From Bacteroidia bacterium (lineage in GTDB: Bacteria > Bacteroidota > Bacteroidia > UBA4408): 34,596 bases of DNA. Shown piece after piece: positions 27,128 through 34,596 of this stretch (position 1 is its first letter; every line of letters starts with the position of its first letter). A model generated the notes under the pieces. The model saw only the letters and a list, made by a program, of their open reading frames with translations, did no database searches and was not told the DNA's origin. A program made the translations under genes and the position numbers. Location of the stretch: NCBI GenBank assembly GCA_020845635.1, contig JADLFI010000038.1, forward strand, positions 1-34,596, given 5' to 3'.

Positions 27128-27201
27128 GGAGTGGTAGTTCAGCTGGTTAGAATGCCTGCCTGTCACGCAGGAGGTCGCGGGTTCGAGTCCCGTCCATTCC
27201 G
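27128..27201 (+). tRNA. tRNA-Asp (anticodon GTC)
   Basis: 74 bases. The acceptor stem GGAGTGG pairs with CCATTCC (one G-T pair). The D-loop is AGTTCAGCTGGTTAGA. The anticodon stem CCTGC/GCAGG encloses CTGTCAC with anticodon GTC (Asp). The T-arm has GTTCGAGTCCC. The discriminator is G at 27201 and CCA is not encoded. It forms the left edge of the accessory region; 3' ends of tRNA genes are common integration sites for tyrosine recombinases. Confidence 0.97.
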
Positions 27202-27505
27202 CAAAAAGTCCATAAAGTAATAACTTTATGGACTTTTGCTTTTTAGGTAAAAGTTTATCTCTTAACAATATATGCTTGGGCAATGAACCGCTCGTAATTT
27301 TTTAACACATAAATGCTTTGTAAGTGAATTGTAAGCATGGCAAGTGACCGATAGTATTTTCAAAACATATACTTCAATTCCATCTGAATATACTTTAGGT
27401 AAACATGCCTACCATTCCTGTGTAACCTATGGAAATACTGCTTAATATACTATTTTGCAATAAGCGCTCCAATGTATTTGTGCGGAAGTATGGTATATAA
27501 AACAG
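27202..27505. other. Non-coding region between tRNA-Asp and the integrase gene
   Basis: 304 bases without a gene. After the terminator it contains an imperfect direct repeat: GGCAATGAACCG at 27279-27290 and GGCAAGTGACCG at 27339-27350, with similarity continuing for about 32 bases at a 60-base offset. A looser third copy, TTGCAATAAGCGCTC, lies around 27454. It could hold integrase arm or core sites, which is a guess. The 3' end of tRNA-Asp is not duplicated elsewhere in the window. Confidence 0.5.
27204..27244 (+). terminator. Strong terminator after tRNA-Asp, likely bidirectional
   Basis: Perfect 15-bp stem: 27204-27218 and 27223-27237, loop AATA, followed by TTTTGCTTTTT. On the minus strand the stem is followed by five T's, so it can also stop transcription coming from the convergent integrase gene. 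It starts two bases after the tRNA. Confidence 0.88.
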
Positions 27506-28582
27506 CTACGATAATTTATCTAAAGGGCTTTTAACTGCATCAAGGCTTGTATCAGCAACGTGAGCGTACAGCATGGTAGTTTTTATATTATTATGTCCCA
27601 ATAATTTTTGTATTAATGTTATATCTGTTCCTAATTCAAGTAAGTGGGTAGCGTAGCTATGTCTAAGCCCATGAATCCCAATTGCTTTTCTGATTTTAGC
27701 TTTTTTCATGGCATTCTTAAAAACTGCCTGAACACTACGTATGCTATATTGCTTACCGAATTGGCCTTCAAATAAGTATTCCTTGGGGTTGTCAATTCTA
27801 TAATATTCTCTTAATTCGGGCAATAAACTTTCGGGAAGATTAACATAGCGGTCTTTTTTTCCCTTCCCTCTTCGGATAAGAACTTTCATTGCCTTGCTGT
27901 CAATATCTGATATTTTGATATTAACAATTTCGCCAACCCTCAAACCCATTCCATAACAAAGTTTCAGCATTACTCTATGTTTTATATTCTCGGTAACTTC
28001 AAACAATTTACTTACTTGTTTCATATTAAGGAATCTCGGCAAATGCATCACTTTCTTAGGTCTAGGAATATCAATAAACATTTTAGGTTGACGCAAAACT
28101 TGTTCAAAATAAAATTTAATGGCATTGATACGGCTGTGAATCTGATTTTCTGAGAGTTTCAACTCTTTATGGCAATACAAAAAATAGCTTTGCAATTTTT
28201 CGGAAGTCAATTTATCCACCGGCTTATCCTTAAGAAGGTATAGCAACTGTGCAAATTCAATAGTGTAAGTTCTAAGGGTGTTTTTGCTATATCCTTTTAA
28301 AGTTAAGGCATTAATAAACTTATTAAACTCAGTCAGATTAATAGGGTTGATTCTTTTAAACACTTCATGACTTACCACCTTTTGCTCTATACCAAACCAA
28401 TTACGATAGGTATAATTATCGCTAACATACCAACACTTTTGTGACTGACTCCATTTAGCAGGTATATGCTCTTTAAGGTGATTGATTAACTGTGTGTCTT
28501 TCACAAAATGTATCCATATTACATTTTTATCATTATGTTTACCTAAGGAATAGGAATAATTATGGACTTTAAAAGCATTCAT
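27506..28582 (-). CDS. Tyrosine recombinase/integrase (XerC/D-like) with extra N-terminal module
   Basis: 358 residues. The catalytic domain has R215 (GMGLRVGEI), a beta-hairpin lysine in RRGKGKKDRY, HGLRH with H304 and R307, H330 (LLGH) and nucleophile Y339 (TTMLYAHV), so all the strand-exchange residues are intact. The core SAM-like DNA-binding domain spans about 80-165. The N-terminal 70 residues are an added module with AKWSQSQKCWYV at 42-53. The protein has no IntI-type insertion, so it is not an integron integrase. It lies next to tRNA-Asp, points toward it, and is the likely mobiliser of the following island. A single-copy chromosomal role cannot be ruled out. Confidence 0.9.
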   Translation of the reverse strand: MNAFKVHNYSYSLGKHNDKNVIWIHFVKDTQLINHLKEHIPAKWSQSQKCWYVSDNYTYRNWFGIEQKVVSHEVFKRINPINLTEFNKFINALTLKGYSKNTLRTYTIEFAQLLYLLKDKPVDKLTSEKLQSYFLYCHKELKLSENQIHSRINAIKFYFEQVLRQPKMFIDIPRPKKVMHLPRFLNMKQVSKLFEVTENIKHRVMLKLCYGMGLRVGEIVNIKISDIDSKAMKVLIRRGKGKKDRYVNLPESLLPELREYYRIDNPKEYLFEGQFGKQYSIRSVQAVFKNAMKKAKIRKAIGIHGLRHSYATHLLELGTDITLIQKLLGHNNIKTTMLYAHVADTSLDAVKSPLDKLS

Positions 28583-28909: not shown

Positions 28910-29012
28910 CCAACCGCACCCAAGCCCACCCACCACCCGACCAGTGGACACGGTAAATTTCCTACTTTACAGAGAATTGAACAGAAAAAATTAGATACTA
29001 ACGAAAAGTTGA

Positions 29013-29020
29013 TATATTTG
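29013..29020 (+). promoter_or_regulatory. -7 box for the restriction operon
   Basis: TATATTTG matches TAnnTTTG. It lies 19 bases before the ATG at 29039, which makes the ATG at 29009 (upstream of the box) unlikely as the start. No clear -33 TTTG is seen. It would drive the whole regulator-methylase-specificity-ATPase operon. Confidence 0.5.
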
Positions 29021-29038
29021 CATCAAATGCCGATTAAT

Positions 29039-29254
29039 ATGAGTAAGAAAGCAATTAACAGATTAAAAGCAGTTTTAGCGGAACAAAGCAAGACAAACAA
29101 ATGGCTTGCCGAGCAACTCGACAAAAACGAAACTACAATCTCTCGTTGGTGCACCAATGAAATACAACCATCTATGGACAATCTTGTGGCAATTGCATCA
29201 CTCTTAAAAGTTGACGTAAGAGATTTAATTAACTCAACAAAAACGACAAAGTAA
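29039..29254 (+). CDS. XRE-family helix-turn-helix regulator
   Basis: 71 residues, one HTH domain and nothing else: LKAVLAEQSKTNKWLAEQLD, then NETTISRWCTNEIQPS as the recognition helix and DNLVAIASLLKVDVRDLI. This is the size and type of controller (C) proteins that time expression of restriction-modification genes. I chose ATG 29039 because an upstream ATG (29009) lies before the probable -7 box; 29027 is also possible. It is two bases ahead of the methylase-nuclease gene, so it probably regulates its own operon. Confidence 0.85.
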   Translation: MSKKAINRLKAVLAEQSKTNKWLAEQLDKNETTISRWCTNEIQPSMDNLVAIASLLKVDVRDLINSTKTTK

Positions 29255-29256
29255 TT

Positions 29257-31527
29257 ATGCAAGTAGAAATCAAGAACAATAAAATAAAAGTGCCTTTAAA
29301 AGGTAAAGACGAATGGTTAGTTCTTAAACCAGAAGAACAAGTTCGCCAAGAATATATTTGCAGACTTGTAAATAATTATGGCTTTGCCTTGGAGCAAATG
29401 GCTCAAGAAATCCAAGTGAGCAATTCGCAACGTGGACAAGGAAGAGCAATGGCAGACATTGTAATTTGGAAAAACGTAAAAGACAAAAGAGAAAACAACA
29501 GTCCAATAATTGTTGTAGAATGTAAAGCTGAACATATTACGGTTCGTGAAGAGGATTATTTTCAAGGGTACAATTACGCATCTTGGGCTGGTGCCGATTT
29601 TTTTGTTACAACCAACTTAAAGGAAACAAGAATTTTCAAAGTAGTAAAAGGAAAGATTCCGAAAAAACTTGAGGAAGTTGTAAATATTCCTGATGCCAAA
29701 ATCATCAATGACGAGAAAAAAATAACAGAGTTATTAAAGCAAACAAAAGCATTTACAAGAGATGAGTTTTCTAAACTACTTTTCAAATGCCACAATATTA
29801 TTCGCAACAATGACAAACTTTCGCCAGAAGCATCATTTGACGAAATAAGTAAAATTCTTTTCATCAAAATTCGTTACGAAAGAAGCAACTCAGAAAATCA
29901 AATTTTTTCAAAAGAGCAGTTTGAAAAATTGAAAAAAGCATACGATGAAACTAAATCAAAAAGTAGCCCTGATTTTTATCAACAGCTATTTGAAAGAACA
30001 AAAGAGGATTTCAAAGACGATGACCTTTTTGAACCTAACGAAATAATAAGAATAAGAGAAAACAGTTTTGAAGCTATTGTAGAAGAATTAGAAATTTACA
30101 ATCTTTCAACAACTTCTGATGATGTAAAGGGAATTGCATTTGAACAGTTTCTAGGTAAAACCTTTAGAGGAGAGTTAGGACAATTCTTTACACCTAGAAC
30201 TGTTGTTGACTTTATAGTTGAAATATTAGACCCACAAGAAAGTGAAATTATTTGCGACCCTTGCTGTGGTTCAGGTGGTTTTCTTATTAAAGCATTTGAA
30301 TTTGTAAGGGCAAAAATTGAAAATGAAATTCATTTAGCTAAAGAAAAAATCAAAAAGGATTATTATAATGAAGCCTACGAAAAACTAACAGACAAGAAAA
30401 AAGCGGTTGTAGATGAAACAGTAACCGAACTTTTTGCTAAACTCAATGCAGAATTGGATATTAACAACCCTAAAAGCCGAATCAGAGAATTGAGTTATGA
30501 CTGTATTTTTGGAACAGATGCTAATCCTCGAATGAGTCGTACAGCAAAAATGAATCTGATTATGCACGGTGATGGACACGGTGGCGTACATCACAATGAC
30601 GGACTTTTGAATGTAAATGGCATTTTTGAAAACCGCTTTGATATTATTCTTACAAATCCTCCATTTGGAAGTAGAGTTGAAAAATCTTTAAAAATTACAG
30701 AAGCAGACAAGTACACAGACGAAGAACGTATTAAAAAATACAAAAAAAGATATGGACCTGCTTATGATGATGCTTTAAAACAAGTAAACGACAATATTGG
30801 TAAATCATTACTTGATTTGTACCATACTGGAACAATGAGTACACTAACAGAGGTGTTATTTATAGAACGCTGCTTGAACTTATTAAAACCAGGCGGACGA
30901 ATGGGAATAGTTTTACCTGAAGGCGTTTTGAATAATACAAACCTTCAAAAAATAAGAGAATTTGTAGAAAGTAAAGCGAAAATTATACTTATCACTTCTA
31001 TTCCACAAGATGTATTTATTGCAAGTGGTGCAACAGTAAAACCAAGTTTACTTTTCTTCAAAAAATTTACAGAAGAGGAAGAAAAGCAATGGAAAACCAT
31101 TGCTACAAAAGCAGAAAAAGAAATAACAAAAAAGTACGAACCACAAACAAAGGCAATTACTTTACAACTAGAACTAAAGGGGAAAGAAGCACCAAGTACA
31201 GAAGATAAAAAGAAATTGAGAGCCGAGTTAAAGCAAATTGAAGACATCATTATTAGTGAAATTAGAATACAACTAAAAAAAGAATTCAATTATCAAATAC
31301 CAATTGCAGAAGTTGAGAAAGCAGGAATTAGCACAACTGGTTCTCAAATAGAAAATGAACTTGTTCCTTTGGCAAAAGAATTTAAAAAATATAGAGAAGA
31401 CAACAAACTTTGGGCAACTTATGTAAAGGAAATAAACTATCAAATAACAGATGAAGAAATTGGTAGAGTTAGAATTGTAGATGGTGTGGTTTCTGAACCC
31501 GAAGTTTTTTATGGCAAAAACAAATAA
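29257..31527 (+). CDS. Fused HsdR-N-type nuclease and N6-adenine DNA methyltransferase
   Basis: 756 residues. Residues 1 to about 160 form a HSDR_N-type PD-(D/E)XK nuclease: D67 in ADIVIW and E88-C-K90 in IIVVECKAEH, followed by YFQGYNYA, all apparently intact. The N-6 methylase part follows. GELGQFFTPRTVVDFIVEIL precedes motif I (DPCCGSGGF at 334-342), and motif IV is NPPF at 467-470. The helical region before motif I resembles HsdM N-terminal domains. Joining cutting and methylating parts in one chain, with a separate S subunit, resembles BcgI-type enzymes. No helicase/translocase motifs are present. The gene starts two bases after the regulator and has AGA-rich arginine codons. Confidence 0.88.
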   Translation: MQVEIKNNKIKVPLKGKDEWLVLKPEEQVRQEYICRLVNNYGFALEQMAQEIQVSNSQRGQGRAMADIVIWKNVKDKRENNSPIIVVECKAEHITVREEDYFQGYNYASWAGADFFVTTNLKETRIFKVVKGKIPKKLEEVVNIPDAKIINDEKKITELLKQTKAFTRDEFSKLLFKCHNIIRNNDKLSPEASFDEISKILFIKIRYERSNSENQIFSKEQFEKLKKAYDETKSKSSPDFYQQLFERTKEDFKDDDLFEPNEIIRIRENSFEAIVEELEIYNLSTTSDDVKGIAFEQFLGKTFRGELGQFFTPRTVVDFIVEILDPQESEIICDPCCGSGGFLIKAFEFVRAKIENEIHLAKEKIKKDYYNEAYEKLTDKKKAVVDETVTELFAKLNAELDINNPKSRIRELSYDCIFGTDANPRMSRTAKMNLIMHGDGHGGVHHNDGLLNVNGIFENRFDIILTNPPFGSRVEKSLKITEADKYTDEERIKKYKKRYGPAYDDALKQVNDNIGKSLLDLYHTGTMSTLTEVLFIERCLNLLKPGGRMGIVLPEGVLNNTNLQKIREFVESKAKIILITSIPQDVFIASGATVKPSLLFFKKFTEEEEKQWKTIATKAEKEITKKYEPQTKAITLQLELKGKEAPSTEDKKKLRAELKQIEDIIISEIRIQLKKEFNYQIPIAEVEKAGISTTGSQIENELVPLAKEFKKYREDNKLWATYVKEINYQITDEEIGRVRIVDGVVSEPEVFYGKNK

Positions 31528-31530
31528 TCA

Positions 31531-32868
31531 ATGCGAGTAACAACTGAAACATTTTTAAAGTTTATTCCCTATTTGCAATTTGATTTGTGGGACACAAAAC
31601 GCTATACATCAAAATCTATTACGTCAATTTATGAGGTGGTTGATTTAGGGAATTGCATAAAAGAAGAAAATAAAAAATATAAACTTTTTGAAGAAGAAGA
31701 AAAAGAGTTTGGAATTTTAGGAGTTAATAATAAAACAGGAATATTTGATGCTTATTTGCAGAAAGGAAAAGACATAAATCAAGCATATAAAAAAATGGAA
31801 GTAGGTTGGTTAGCCTATAATCCATATCGTATCAATGTAGGTTCAATTGGTGTTAGGCTAACGGAACATAAAAACGAATATATAAGCCCAGCGTATGTTG
31901 TCTTTAGTTGTAAAAACAACATTTTACCCGAGTATTTATTTCTACTATTCAAAACAAATACATTCAATAAAGTTATAAATGAAAGTACAACTGGTTCTGT
32001 TAGGCAAAACCTAACGATTGATATACTTAAAAAACTAAAAATTCCACTCCCTTCAATAAAAGAACAAGAGGCTTTAGTTAGAGTTTACCACAAAAAGACA
32101 AAAGAAGCAGAAAGCCTTTCATTACAAGCAAATGATTTAGAAAGTGAAATTGAAAAGTATTTTTTAGAACAGTTAGGGTTAAAGCCTTTCAGTATAAAAG
32201 AAAAAATATTAACCCTTCAAACAACAGATTATGTTTCATTAGACCGTTGGGATTTCTTTTCAACGGATACAAGAATTGCTATTGAATTGAGAAAATCAAA
32301 ATTTGAATTATCATCAATTGGTAAATCATTTCAATTTGCGAAACGCAGTTTTAATAAAGCACAATACAAAAAGGAAACCTTTAAATACATCGAAATTGGA
32401 GCAATAGACCCAACAAAAGGAATTCTTGAAGCAAAAGAAATAGAGGTAAAAAAAGCACCTAGCAGAGCAACACAAATTGTAAAAGAAGGCGATTTAATTA
32501 TTGGAACCACAAGACCTTATTTGAAGAAATTTGCAATAGTTACAAACGAATACGACAGTGATATTTGTTCGTCAGGTTTTAGTATAATTGGTCAATCCGC
32601 AAATTATCATCTTCCATTTTTACATCAATTTCTAAAATGCACTTATGGAATTGAACAATTGAAAAACAGAATGACTGGTGGTCTTTATCCAGCTATTACC
32701 GAACCCGAATTGAAAGAAATAAAAATACCTTTCCCAAAAGTTGAAACCCAAAAGGAAATAATGACATTAATTGACCATAAGAAGGAAAACATTTTAAACA
32801 ACAAAGAATTAATTGTTTCGATTAAAGAAAAAGCGGAACAAGAATTTGAAAAAGCAATATTTAGTTAA
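31531..32868 (+). CDS. Type I-like specificity subunit (HsdS) with two target-recognition domains
   Basis: 445 residues with two TRD-plus-coiled-coil repeats. The first half ends in GSVRQNLTIDILKKLKIPLP with SIKEQEALVRVYHKK, then a helix (SLSLQANDLESEIEKYF). The second half ends in GGLYPAITEPELKEIKIPFP, then KVETQKEIMTLIDHKK and a second long helix. Two TRDs mean a bipartite recognition sequence. It starts three bases after the fused methylase-nuclease, which it should guide. The recognition sequence cannot be predicted. Confidence 0.9.
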   Translation: MRVTTETFLKFIPYLQFDLWDTKRYTSKSITSIYEVVDLGNCIKEENKKYKLFEEEEKEFGILGVNNKTGIFDAYLQKGKDINQAYKKMEVGWLAYNPYRINVGSIGVRLTEHKNEYISPAYVVFSCKNNILPEYLFLLFKTNTFNKVINESTTGSVRQNLTIDILKKLKIPLPSIKEQEALVRVYHKKTKEAESLSLQANDLESEIEKYFLEQLGLKPFSIKEKILTLQTTDYVSLDRWDFFSTDTRIAIELRKSKFELSSIGKSFQFAKRSFNKAQYKKETFKYIEIGAIDPTKGILEAKEIEVKKAPSRATQIVKEGDLIIGTTRPYLKKFAIVTNEYDSDICSSGFSIIGQSANYHLPFLHQFLKCTYGIEQLKNRMTGGLYPAITEPELKEIKIPFPKVETQKEIMTLIDHKKENILNNKELIVSIKEKAEQEFEKAIFS

Positions 32869-32871
32869 GTT

Positions 32872-34596
32872 ATGAAAATTAAAAAACTGAAAATAAAGAA
32901 TTACAAAAATTTAGATGCAGACTTAGTTCATAACTCTGATTTAATTGCCTTTATCGGGAATAATGGAAGTGGTAAAAGTAATTTGCTTGAAGCAATAAGC
33001 CATATTTTTCGAAGCCTTTATGTATCAAAATACAAAGTAAATTTTGACTATTTAATTGAGTATTTAACTTCTAAGAACAATACTGTACAAATAGAAAAAA
33101 CTGGTAAAGACTTAAAGTATACTTTAGATGGAAATAGTAAATCATCGTCAGAAATTTCAAGCTACTTGCCACAAAAAGTTGTAGGGATTTATAGCGGAGA
33201 AGAAACTAGATTGTTTGATGATTGTTACGGTCCATTCTATTTAGAATTTGTAACTAACATAAACAAAGCACAAAATCAAGGTACTGTTTATTCTGAATTA
33301 CCTAAAATGCTTTTCCTTAATAAATTTTATTGGAACATTTCTTTGTTATGCCTTTTAATTTCAGATTCACAGGATAATAAAAAGTTTGTAGAACAGGTTT
33401 TAAAAATAAAAGACCTCCAAAAAATTAAAATTAAAATTGACTTTATTAAACGTAATTATTCCAATTACAACGACAATCAAGCTCTTACAATAGTTCGTGA
33501 TATTGATGCAAAATCTGAATACACTTTAGCTGAATTTACAAAGTTACTCAACGACAAATATTACACACCCTACAATGTTTTTAAATATTTGTATTTGGCT
33601 TATACGCCAAAGGATGCGAAAATAATCGATGATATAATAATCGAGTTTTCAGATGGTCTTACAGTTTCAGATTTAAGTGAAGGAGAAAAAAAATTACTGC
33701 TAATAAAAGGAGCTTTAGAATTTGCAGGTCAAGAAGATAGCATTTTTATATTGGATGAACCAGATTCTCACATCCACATCAACAACAAAGAACAGATAAT
33801 AAATAGTTTCAAAGATTACTTACACAATCGCCAAATAATTATCACTACTCACTCTCCTGTACTTACACAATGTGTAAAGGACGAGAATGTTTATATGCTT
33901 AATAGTGGTAAAATTGAAGACAGAAATAGACAAGAAATAATTCAAGAAGTTGCTGGTGAATTTTGGAACAAACATCAACAAAATAGTTTTCTCTCATCTA
34001 AAAAACCAATTCATTTATTTGTCGAGGGTATTCACGACAAAAAACATATTTCTAATGCTTACAGAATTTTAGAACCCGAATACAAAGATTTACAATTTGA
34101 TATTTTTTCATTAGGTGGAGAAGGCAAAATTCATCCATTTTTAAATGGATTATACGAAGCTAATTTGAAAGATGACAAGTTACATATTGCTATTTACGAC
34201 AATGACAATGCAGGTGAACAAGCATATACTAAATCAGGATATTTGCCATTACAACCACCTACTGAATTTAGAAAACTAAAAGAAGATAAAATAAAGCATA
34301 ATAATTTTTTCGCTTTCAAACTTCCAAAGCCAGATAATCATAATGCTGAATGTACCATAGAAAATATGTTTGATTCAACAATGTATGAACAAGCCTATAA
34401 AGAAGCATTTGAAGGACGAATTGGCAAATTTGAAGGCTTTTCAATTGACAAAATCAACGAAGAAATATTAAAGGATTCGAAAAACATTTTATCAAATAAG
34501 ACTGAAAACTTAACGGACAAAGAGGATTTTAAAAATTTTAGAAAACTATTTGATTTAATAAAGGAAATCAAAAAATATAGTGATGATAACAAAGTA
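32872..34596 (+). CDS. OLD-like ATPase-TOPRIM protein, partial (cut by window end)
   Basis: 575 codons with no stop before the window ends. The N-terminal ABC-type ATPase domain has Walker A GNNGSGKS at 29-36, signature LSEGEKK starting at 268, Walker B IFILDEPDSH at 291-300 and the H-loop THSP at 326-329. A TOPRIM-like domain follows: FVEGIHDKKH with E385 and IYDNDNAGEQ with D443 and D445. This order is that of OLD-family nucleases, as in the GajA subunit of Gabija. The start is ATG 32872, three bases after hsdS, so it belongs to the same operon. A role in phage defence is inferred from context. RloA-type or PtuA-type ATPases are alternatives, but they lack or differ in TOPRIM. Confidence 0.85.
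   Translation, partial: MKIKKLKIKNYKNLDADLVHNSDLIAFIGNNGSGKSNLLEAISHIFRSLYVSKYKVNFDYLIEYLTSKNNTVQIEKTGKDLKYTLDGNSKSSSEISSYLPQKVVGIYSGEETRLFDDCYGPFYLEFVTNINKAQNQGTVYSELPKMLFLNKFYWNISLLCLLISDSQDNKKFVEQVLKIKDLQKIKIKIDFIKRNYSNYNDNQALTIVRDIDAKSEYTLAEFTKLLNDKYYTPYNVFKYLYLAYTPKDAKIIDDIIIEFSDGLTVSDLSEGEKKLLLIKGALEFAGQEDSIFILDEPDSHIHINNKEQIINSFKDYLHNRQIIITTHSPVLTQCVKDENVYMLNSGKIEDRNRQEIIQEVAGEFWNKHQQNSFLSSKKPIHLFVEGIHDKKHISNAYRILEPEYKDLQFDIFSLGGEGKIHPFLNGLYEANLKDDKLHIAIYDNDNAGEQAYTKSGYLPLQPPTEFRKLKEDKIKHNNFFAFKLPKPDNHNAECTIENMFDSTMYEQAYKEAFEGRIGKFEGFSIDKINEEILKDSKNILSNKTENLTDKEDFKNFRKLFDLIKEIKKYSDDNKV

Follow-up and report, generated by a model that had tools for sequence, protein, structure and literature searches.

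What is a gene for an ABC ATPase with a C-terminal OLD-type TOPRIM nuclease domain doing directly behind the specificity gene of a restriction-modification (RM) operon? The arrangement is found at the right end of the window, by which we mean the whole stretch of DNA analysed here, a complete contig (C38) of 34,596 b from a genome of 3.05 Mb in 60 contigs. Four genes follow one another on the forward strand. A small, controller-like HTH regulator of 81 aa (29009..29254; Pfam HTH_3, 1.3e-8) is followed after 2 nt by M, the RM subunit (29257..31527), in which an HsdR-type PD-(D/E)xK nuclease is fused to an N6-adenine methylase. The specificity subunit S (hsdS; 31531..32868; Methylase_S in two stretches, 3.9e-15) begins 3 nt beyond M, and a further 3 nt separate it from the ATPase-TOPRIM gene (32872..34596). 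The original prediction had this gene starting three bases past hsdS and its product carrying a full ABC motif set plus the acidic residues of a TOPRIM domain. Both claims are borne out, the former by an hsdS end at 32868 and an ATPase open reading frame starting at 32872, and the latter by the translation. The gene extends for 575 codons and lacks its 3' end, which has been cut by assembly since the window is an entire contig. Searching the other contigs of the genome with the complete Salegentibacter protein (L006) did not recover the missing end, which may differ from that of L006. The arrangement is not a matter of chance, as it recurs in the relatives described below.

The operon lies downstream of a tRNA-Asp(gtc) gene (27128..27202, forward strand; ARAGORN) and of a leftward-transcribed tyrosine integrase (27506..28582; Phage_integrase, 2.3e-41). 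Two genomes of the same genus (G002 and G003) match the window at 76% until about position 27207, right after the tRNA, where the homology is lost; a third (G001) gave zero matches. A 29-bp copy of the tRNA-Asp end is present again in G002. Because the homology stops behind the tRNA and the tRNA end is repeated in G002, the operon is probably part of an island integrated at tRNA-Asp, this tRNA gene being the likely integration site.

The first component to consider is the restriction enzyme. M is a single open reading frame in which HSDR_N_2 (1e-23) precedes N6_Mtase (2.2e-36), and the nuclease residues D67 and E88-x-K90, together with the methylase motifs DPxxGSGGFL and NPPF, are kept in all 18 of the M proteins aligned. 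Its longest PDB match is to RM.BsaXI, over profile positions 166-676, outside the nuclease part. There is no hsdR in the readable part of the window operon. The genome does encode one above-cut-off hsdR on another contig, accompanied by its own S-profile match, which could help in trans; a second hsdR-family match at the same locus falls below cut-off, and no ATPase of the window family is present there. With an intact HsdR-type motif in M and an operon that is without hsdR, the predicted enzyme resembles type IIB systems (BcgI-like), in which nuclease and methylase share one chain and S is separate. PADLOC calls the RM fusion a type I methyltransferase (PDLC03018) despite the intact nuclease motif and the missing hsdR, and automated annotation of such RM-fusion operons may be wrong.

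The second component contains the ABC motifs Walker A (GNNGSGKS, residues 29-36), signature (SEGEKK, 269-274), Walker B (LDEPD, 294-298) and H-loop (THSP, 326-329), and then the TOPRIM residues E385-G386-x-x-D389, D443-x-D445, T495-x-E497 and K537. In an alignment of the window protein with five relatives all of these motif residues are invariant save N30 and T495, and the E, D, DxD, E and K positions are invariant across the eight TOPRIM proteins of RM-fusion operons, among which the T/S position varies. The TOPRIM and its helical domain occupy residues 365-570 (33964..34581, forward strand), an assignment based on alignment, PDB profile search and Foldseek. In the window protein Pfam detects AAA_21 (4.4e-22) and AAA_15 (1.1e-14) but, at a threshold of 0.001, none of its TOPRIM families; OLD-like_TOPRIM does exceed its cut-off (26.9 vs 23.2 bits) in the protein from Salegentibacter, which is 55% identical. 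For the B. pseudomallei class 2 OLD enzyme the reported two-metal residues are E400, E404, D455, D457, T506, E508 and K562 (PMC6755086). The C-terminal domain of the window protein is an OLD-type TOPRIM and a predicted nuclease; it retains these residues and those of the retron Eco2 TOPRIM (PMC12405507).

Structural comparisons place the two halves of the protein near different relatives. An AlphaFold model of the whole protein (mean pLDDT 79.8) returns OLD, retron I-A PtuA, PARIS AriA and GajA among the top Foldseek matches, at a low whole-chain TM of about 0.3. For the ATPase part PtuA leads the structural alignment (Z 17.3, rmsd 3.5, 257 residues aligned), rows within 1 Z being tied, followed by SMC and Rad50 heads (Z 15-16); AriA aligns over model residues 1-347 with Z 15.6, as many ABC heads do. 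The best PADLOC match of the ATPase is likewise PtuA (PDLC00293; 9.7e-46, 154.8 bits), with models for GajA, AriAB and mad3 also among the matches and AriAB, at 68.6 bits, weaker than PtuA. Since the VIA-align rows mostly cover model residues 1-364, the TOPRIM was modelled separately (pLDDT 79.0). Five Foldseek matches to this model have E<=0.001, all of them OLD C-terminal regions (6njx, 6njw, 6njv, and 6nk8 chains A and B; TM 0.43-0.49, rmsd 8.5-9.1), and by sequence the TOPRIM profile matches the retron Ec67/Eco2 protein best among PDB entries (1.2e-4). The Eco2 TOPRIM is reported to be an RNase (PMC12405507) and the class 2 OLD enzymes to cut DNA (PMC6755086), so that the fold, being closest to class 2 OLD, does not favour an RNA substrate.

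Searches with the ATPase identify two close loci in named genomes, Chitinophaga (L005, 60%) and Salegentibacter (L006, 55%), two loci besides the genome's own among 198 relatives, and six plasmid records, of which the best, from Flammeovirga, was inspected and carries the operon; the other five cover 12-18% of the query. The order M-S-ATPase is common to all five of these first relatives (Chitinophaga, Salegentibacter, the two relatives and the Flammeovirga plasmid). Searches with M add G361, G400, G555 and G495 (395 genomes), a distant locus in G670 (244 genomes) and 16 loci from a viral collection, the G495 locus ending with its contig just past M. The ATPase is present in three of the five viral loci in which M exceeds 1000 bits (L027, L030 and L035) and missing from the other two, which have just M and S (L028 and L029); there is no ATPase-profile match in the 11 more distant viral loci, several loci being cut by contig ends, or in G670. 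Restriction seems not to need the ATPase, given these M-S pairs without an ATPase match both close (L028, L029) and distant (G670), and a guard of restriction or an independent passenger fits them better than an essential subunit. Three plasmid records match M, and the one inspected, from Acidithiobacillus, has no annotated ATPase behind M. Among 50,697 phage records the ATPase has no match at 1e-5 and M none at 1e-60. Two weak ATPase matches in the viral collection (L045 and L046, 39 and 29 bits) may be ordinary ABC proteins, and no M-profile match is present near them in the stretches fetched.

The effector encoded behind hsdS differs among the 12 RM-fusion operons that have the ATPase. Eight encode an ATPase-TOPRIM protein (the window, L005, L006, L007, L008, L013, L022 and L030), and four a PtuA-like ATPase together with a PtuB-like HNH gene (L023, L024, L027 and L035, with best PADLOC PtuB E-values of 5e-53, 1.5e-66, 6e-45 and 6e-66). 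In all 12 the ATPase starts between -29 and +3 nt from the end of S, depending on the choice of start (L005 is counted from the first aligned residue and L007 from an upstream TTG), which may shift values by tens of bases. The M frame of the HNH-type locus L023 (G555:C30:1733-3979) contains one internal TGA, and the open reading frame used starts at 1874, reflecting either a later start or a decayed gene.

The TOPRIM and HNH types are scattered on the M tree, which has a midpoint root, 7 of 15 inner branches unresolved, and omits G670 and eight of the eleven distant viral M loci. At least three changes are needed on well-supported branches, and the labels cluster no more strongly than in shuffles (218 of 500 as low). 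The TOPRIM operon L006 and the HNH operon L024 are sisters (100/100) with identities of 88% in M, 54% in S and 30% in the ATPases, and L007 (TOPRIM) and L035 (HNH) form a second such pair (100/100) with identities of 70%, 30% and 31%. On the ATPase tree the labels are clustered, requiring two changes (as low in at most 1 of 500 shuffles), and the eight RM-fusion TOPRIM proteins form a single 100/100 clade; on this tree the division by effector type coincides with that by RM type in four clusters, and support for the deeper branches is 83-84%. Contig-cut loci were left out, namely L071 and L072 from the ATPase tree and adjacency count, and L025 from the effector labels. Since the labels are scattered on the M tree and clustered on the ATPase tree, the ATPase-effector unit appears to have entered the slot repeatedly, and the simplest reading of these sequence comparisons is that M stays conserved while the units behind it are swapped whole, S also being variable.

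The position of the ATPase was also examined from the opposite direction. A profile of the 12 ATPases, used against 395 genomes of the phylum at a threshold of 1e-20, matches 16 genomes, of which five had supplied profile rows and two (G395 and G514) are cut by contig ends. All nine others (G100, G209, G246, G254, G348, G352, G484, G488 and G518) have an S-profile match immediately upstream of the ATPase and an M-profile match before S, in type I-like order, and PADLOC confirms HsdR in both of the upstream open reading frames scanned (L065 and L069). The gap between S and the ATPase is -20 to +12 nt in eight of them and +163 in the ninth. TOPRIM motifs are present in four of the nine; the remaining five have an HNH partner, recognised through PADLOC PtuB in three and by inspection of the translated sequence in two. 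Judged by gene order and motifs, members of this ATPase family recur in the slot behind hsdS in type I-like and RM-fusion operons alike, where they come with the same two effectors.

Even close relatives end differently: the ATPase-TOPRIM protein has a fused DUF5655 in L005 (L005:10004-12163), a fused DUF4357 in L006 (L006:10001-12058) and no such extension in L007, L008, L013, L022 and L030. In L007 (L007:4649-7534, genome G104) the ATPase gene is followed immediately by a separate 276-aa gene carrying DUF4357, and then by a 680-aa Piwi-domain gene; by eye, we take the front of the 276-aa product to be GIY-YIG-like. An 871-aa AAA_23/SMC-like open reading frame in L008 (L008:6625-9240, genome G172) overlaps the ATPase-TOPRIM end by 59 nt and is possibly a further component. 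Downstream in Chitinophaga (L005:13187-16090) are a capP-like gene and a phospholipase effector, and in Salegentibacter (L006:12519-18036) a type IIG enzyme and a GmrSD_N protein.

What do these features say about the role of the gene? Gene order, near-overlapping genes, conserved active-site residues and repeated exchange of the effector module emerge from the sequence comparisons, and because the near-overlapping position is fixed, units are replaced repeatedly, and catalytic residues are kept on both tiers, they suggest a functional tie between the two enzymes. Conserved adjacency could also reflect the joint transfer of independent defence genes. In the interpretation that we favour, ranked above the amplifier and the independent passenger considered below and in our view about as apt to be right as wrong, the operon would be a two-tier defence in which the ATPase-TOPRIM protein is a PrrC-like guard that fires when restriction is disabled. 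The first tier would be a translocase-free RM enzyme of a type IIB-like kind, with cleavage and methylation in one chain and site recognition in a separate S, and the second would be the ABC ATPase-TOPRIM protein encoded directly behind S. While the RM complex is intact the ATPase-TOPRIM protein would stay idle, most likely through contact with S or with the RM-S complex. A phage anti-restriction factor that blocks or strips the RM complex would, by analogy with known guards, release it, whereupon the ATPase head would free the TOPRIM nuclease to cut the infected cell's nucleic acid, with RNA or tRNA a slightly likelier target than DNA. Growth would then presumably stop before phage are made, as with PrrC on EcoprrI.

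The guard also has precedents in PrrC, PARIS and a tRNA-cutting Septu. PrrC, the best documented of them, is embedded in the EcoprrI operon, is silent in the RM complex, and is reported to become active when T4 Stp inhibits the enzyme (PMC3874165, PMC3506569, PMC12707154). PARIS, an ATPase with a TOPRIM nuclease, is described as triggered by the anti-restriction protein Ocr and as cutting tRNA (PMC12409363, PMC12707154), and a recent review presents PARIS, like PrrC, as a guardian that detects when restriction has failed (PMC12707154). Septu PtuAB, a module of the same kind as the alternative occupant of the slot, is reported to cut tRNA-Tyr (PMC13096335).

It is also conceivable, if rather improbable, that the RM-S enzyme senses unmodified DNA and thereby activates the ATPase-TOPRIM protein, which would degrade the invading DNA alongside restriction and not after its failure. 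An added processive nuclease would be useful to an M with a single nuclease domain in an operon without a translocase, the TOPRIM fold best matches class 2 OLD, of which the B. pseudomallei enzyme is reported to degrade DNA processively (PMC6755086), and PrrC can, according to one review, also be activated by unmodified DNA (PMC3506569). Such amplification sits less well with a slot that also accepts Septu-like HNH modules, one studied Septu being reported to cut tRNA (PMC13096335), that is filled in type I operons as well, two of them with confirmed HsdR, and with the existence of M-S pairs without the ATPase. We consider it similarly doubtful that the ATPase-TOPRIM gene is an autonomous OLD-type defence whose only connection with the operon is to be encoded in it and transferred along with it. 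There are class 1 OLD proteins, such as P2 Old, that are encoded by single genes (PMC10568477), and the locus is an apparent island at tRNA-Asp, where many kinds of defence gene may gather. An independent gene would nonetheless be expected elsewhere too, and among the 14 genomes whose matches reach 1e-20 and have readable flanks it is never found away from this place. It lies immediately behind S in 12 of 12 operons of the family and in all nine of the additional loci whose flanks can be read, in type IIB-like and type I-like systems alike, which lends support to the proposal, made when only the window had been read, that its partner may be the restriction enzyme.

Much less probable than either is that the locus is a Gabija, PARIS or MADS system that has been misread. 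The matches to the PADLOC models GajA, AriAB and mad3 point in this direction, as do matches of the NCBIfam MADS2 and MADS5 models to M and S. The MADS scores are far under the NCBIfam cut-offs, with 302.9 of 720 bits for the window M and 68.1 of 400 for its S, and MAD3, for which the relatives' ATPases were scanned, gives 37.9 of 420 (L006) and 33.9 of 420 (L005). A MAD2 family search of 345 genomes of the phylum gives three matches, none above cut-off; two of these regions are without an ATPase of the window family, and in the third (L084) the contig breaks off soon after S. The original prediction had named a UvrD-like neighbour as the sign of an ordinary Gabija pair. The window itself ends inside the ATPase gene and L030 also ends too early to be read, but UvrD is not the next same-strand gene in any of the six readable relatives (L005, L006, L007, L008, L013 and L022), and we reject the Gabija pair on this basis.

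If the guard interpretation is correct, it would account for the recurrence of Septu- and OLD-like ATPases immediately next to hsdS. More tentatively, and with distinctly less confidence than we attach to the guard itself, the place behind hsdS may be a general site into which guards of restriction enzymes, effectors gated by an ABC ATPase, are plugged, in type I and in hsdR-less type IIB-like systems. TOPRIM, Septu-like HNH and, in EcoprrI, HEPN PrrC effectors would be alternative occupants of it, with cleavage of tRNA or RNA as their probable common outcome, and PARIS, Septu and the retron type I effectors would be free or re-partnered versions. Many anti-restriction proteins are carried by phages, and whether a second weapon is common among restriction enzymes is a testable question. 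Closely related RM-S pairs with two different ATPase-nuclease modules constitute a natural swap experiment, from which it can be tested whether the ATPase senses S or the RM complex, and whether the TOPRIM and HNH effectors share the same trigger.

The general idea of OLD-ABC nucleases beside RM-like systems is already known. Krishnan 2020, cited in PMC12839542, is said to report ABC-ATPase RM-like systems, and may contain part of what our literature search did not find elsewhere, namely an hsdR-less RM-fusion partner, a fixed slot across RM types and exchange on the M tree. OLD-ABC proteins with TOPRIM or HNH domains have been described as presumed backup effectors in BREX and RM-like systems, beside modification systems (PMC12839542), as here; the hsdR-less RM fusion, the fixed place behind hsdS and effector exchange on the M tree are not described in the available part of that report. 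The NCBIfam family TIGR04435 (restriction system-associated AAA family ATPase) belongs to the same ATPase superfamily and has the RM association in its name, but all 10 of the ATPases scanned fall below its 300-bit cut-off, five HNH-type ATPases scoring 104.6 to 147 bits and five TOPRIM-type ATPases 49.6 to 69.4.

Several defence systems share the components of the window protein in other settings. Gabija GajA and the class 2 OLD proteins have the same fused ABC ATPase-TOPRIM architecture, and the window TOPRIM fold is closest to the C-terminal regions of the latter; unlike in Gabija, a UvrD-type GajB is not the neighbour. PARIS (AriA-AriB) also combines an ABC ATPase with a TOPRIM nuclease, sometimes fused (PMC12409363). 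The window gene differs in being coupled to hsdS. DUF4435, which we take to be the Pfam family of AriB, was not reported in the Pfam scan of the window. The likeness to Septu (PtuA-PtuB) is twofold, as PtuA is the best PADLOC match of the window ATPase and the alternative occupants of the slot are themselves PtuA- and PtuB-like. Going by the names of the PADLOC models, type I retrons show the same pair of alternatives, an ATPase with HNH in I-A and an ATPase-Toprim in I-B, their partner being a reverse transcriptase with its DNA whereas here it is the RM-S enzyme. PrrC in the type IC EcoprrI operon is similar both in architecture, with an ABC-type NTPase and a C-terminal nuclease, and in location, its gene lying inside an RM operon (PMC3874165, PMC3506569, PMC12707154). 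It differs in that its nuclease is a HEPN-type anticodon nuclease, whereas that of the window protein is an OLD TOPRIM encoded in an operon without hsdR.
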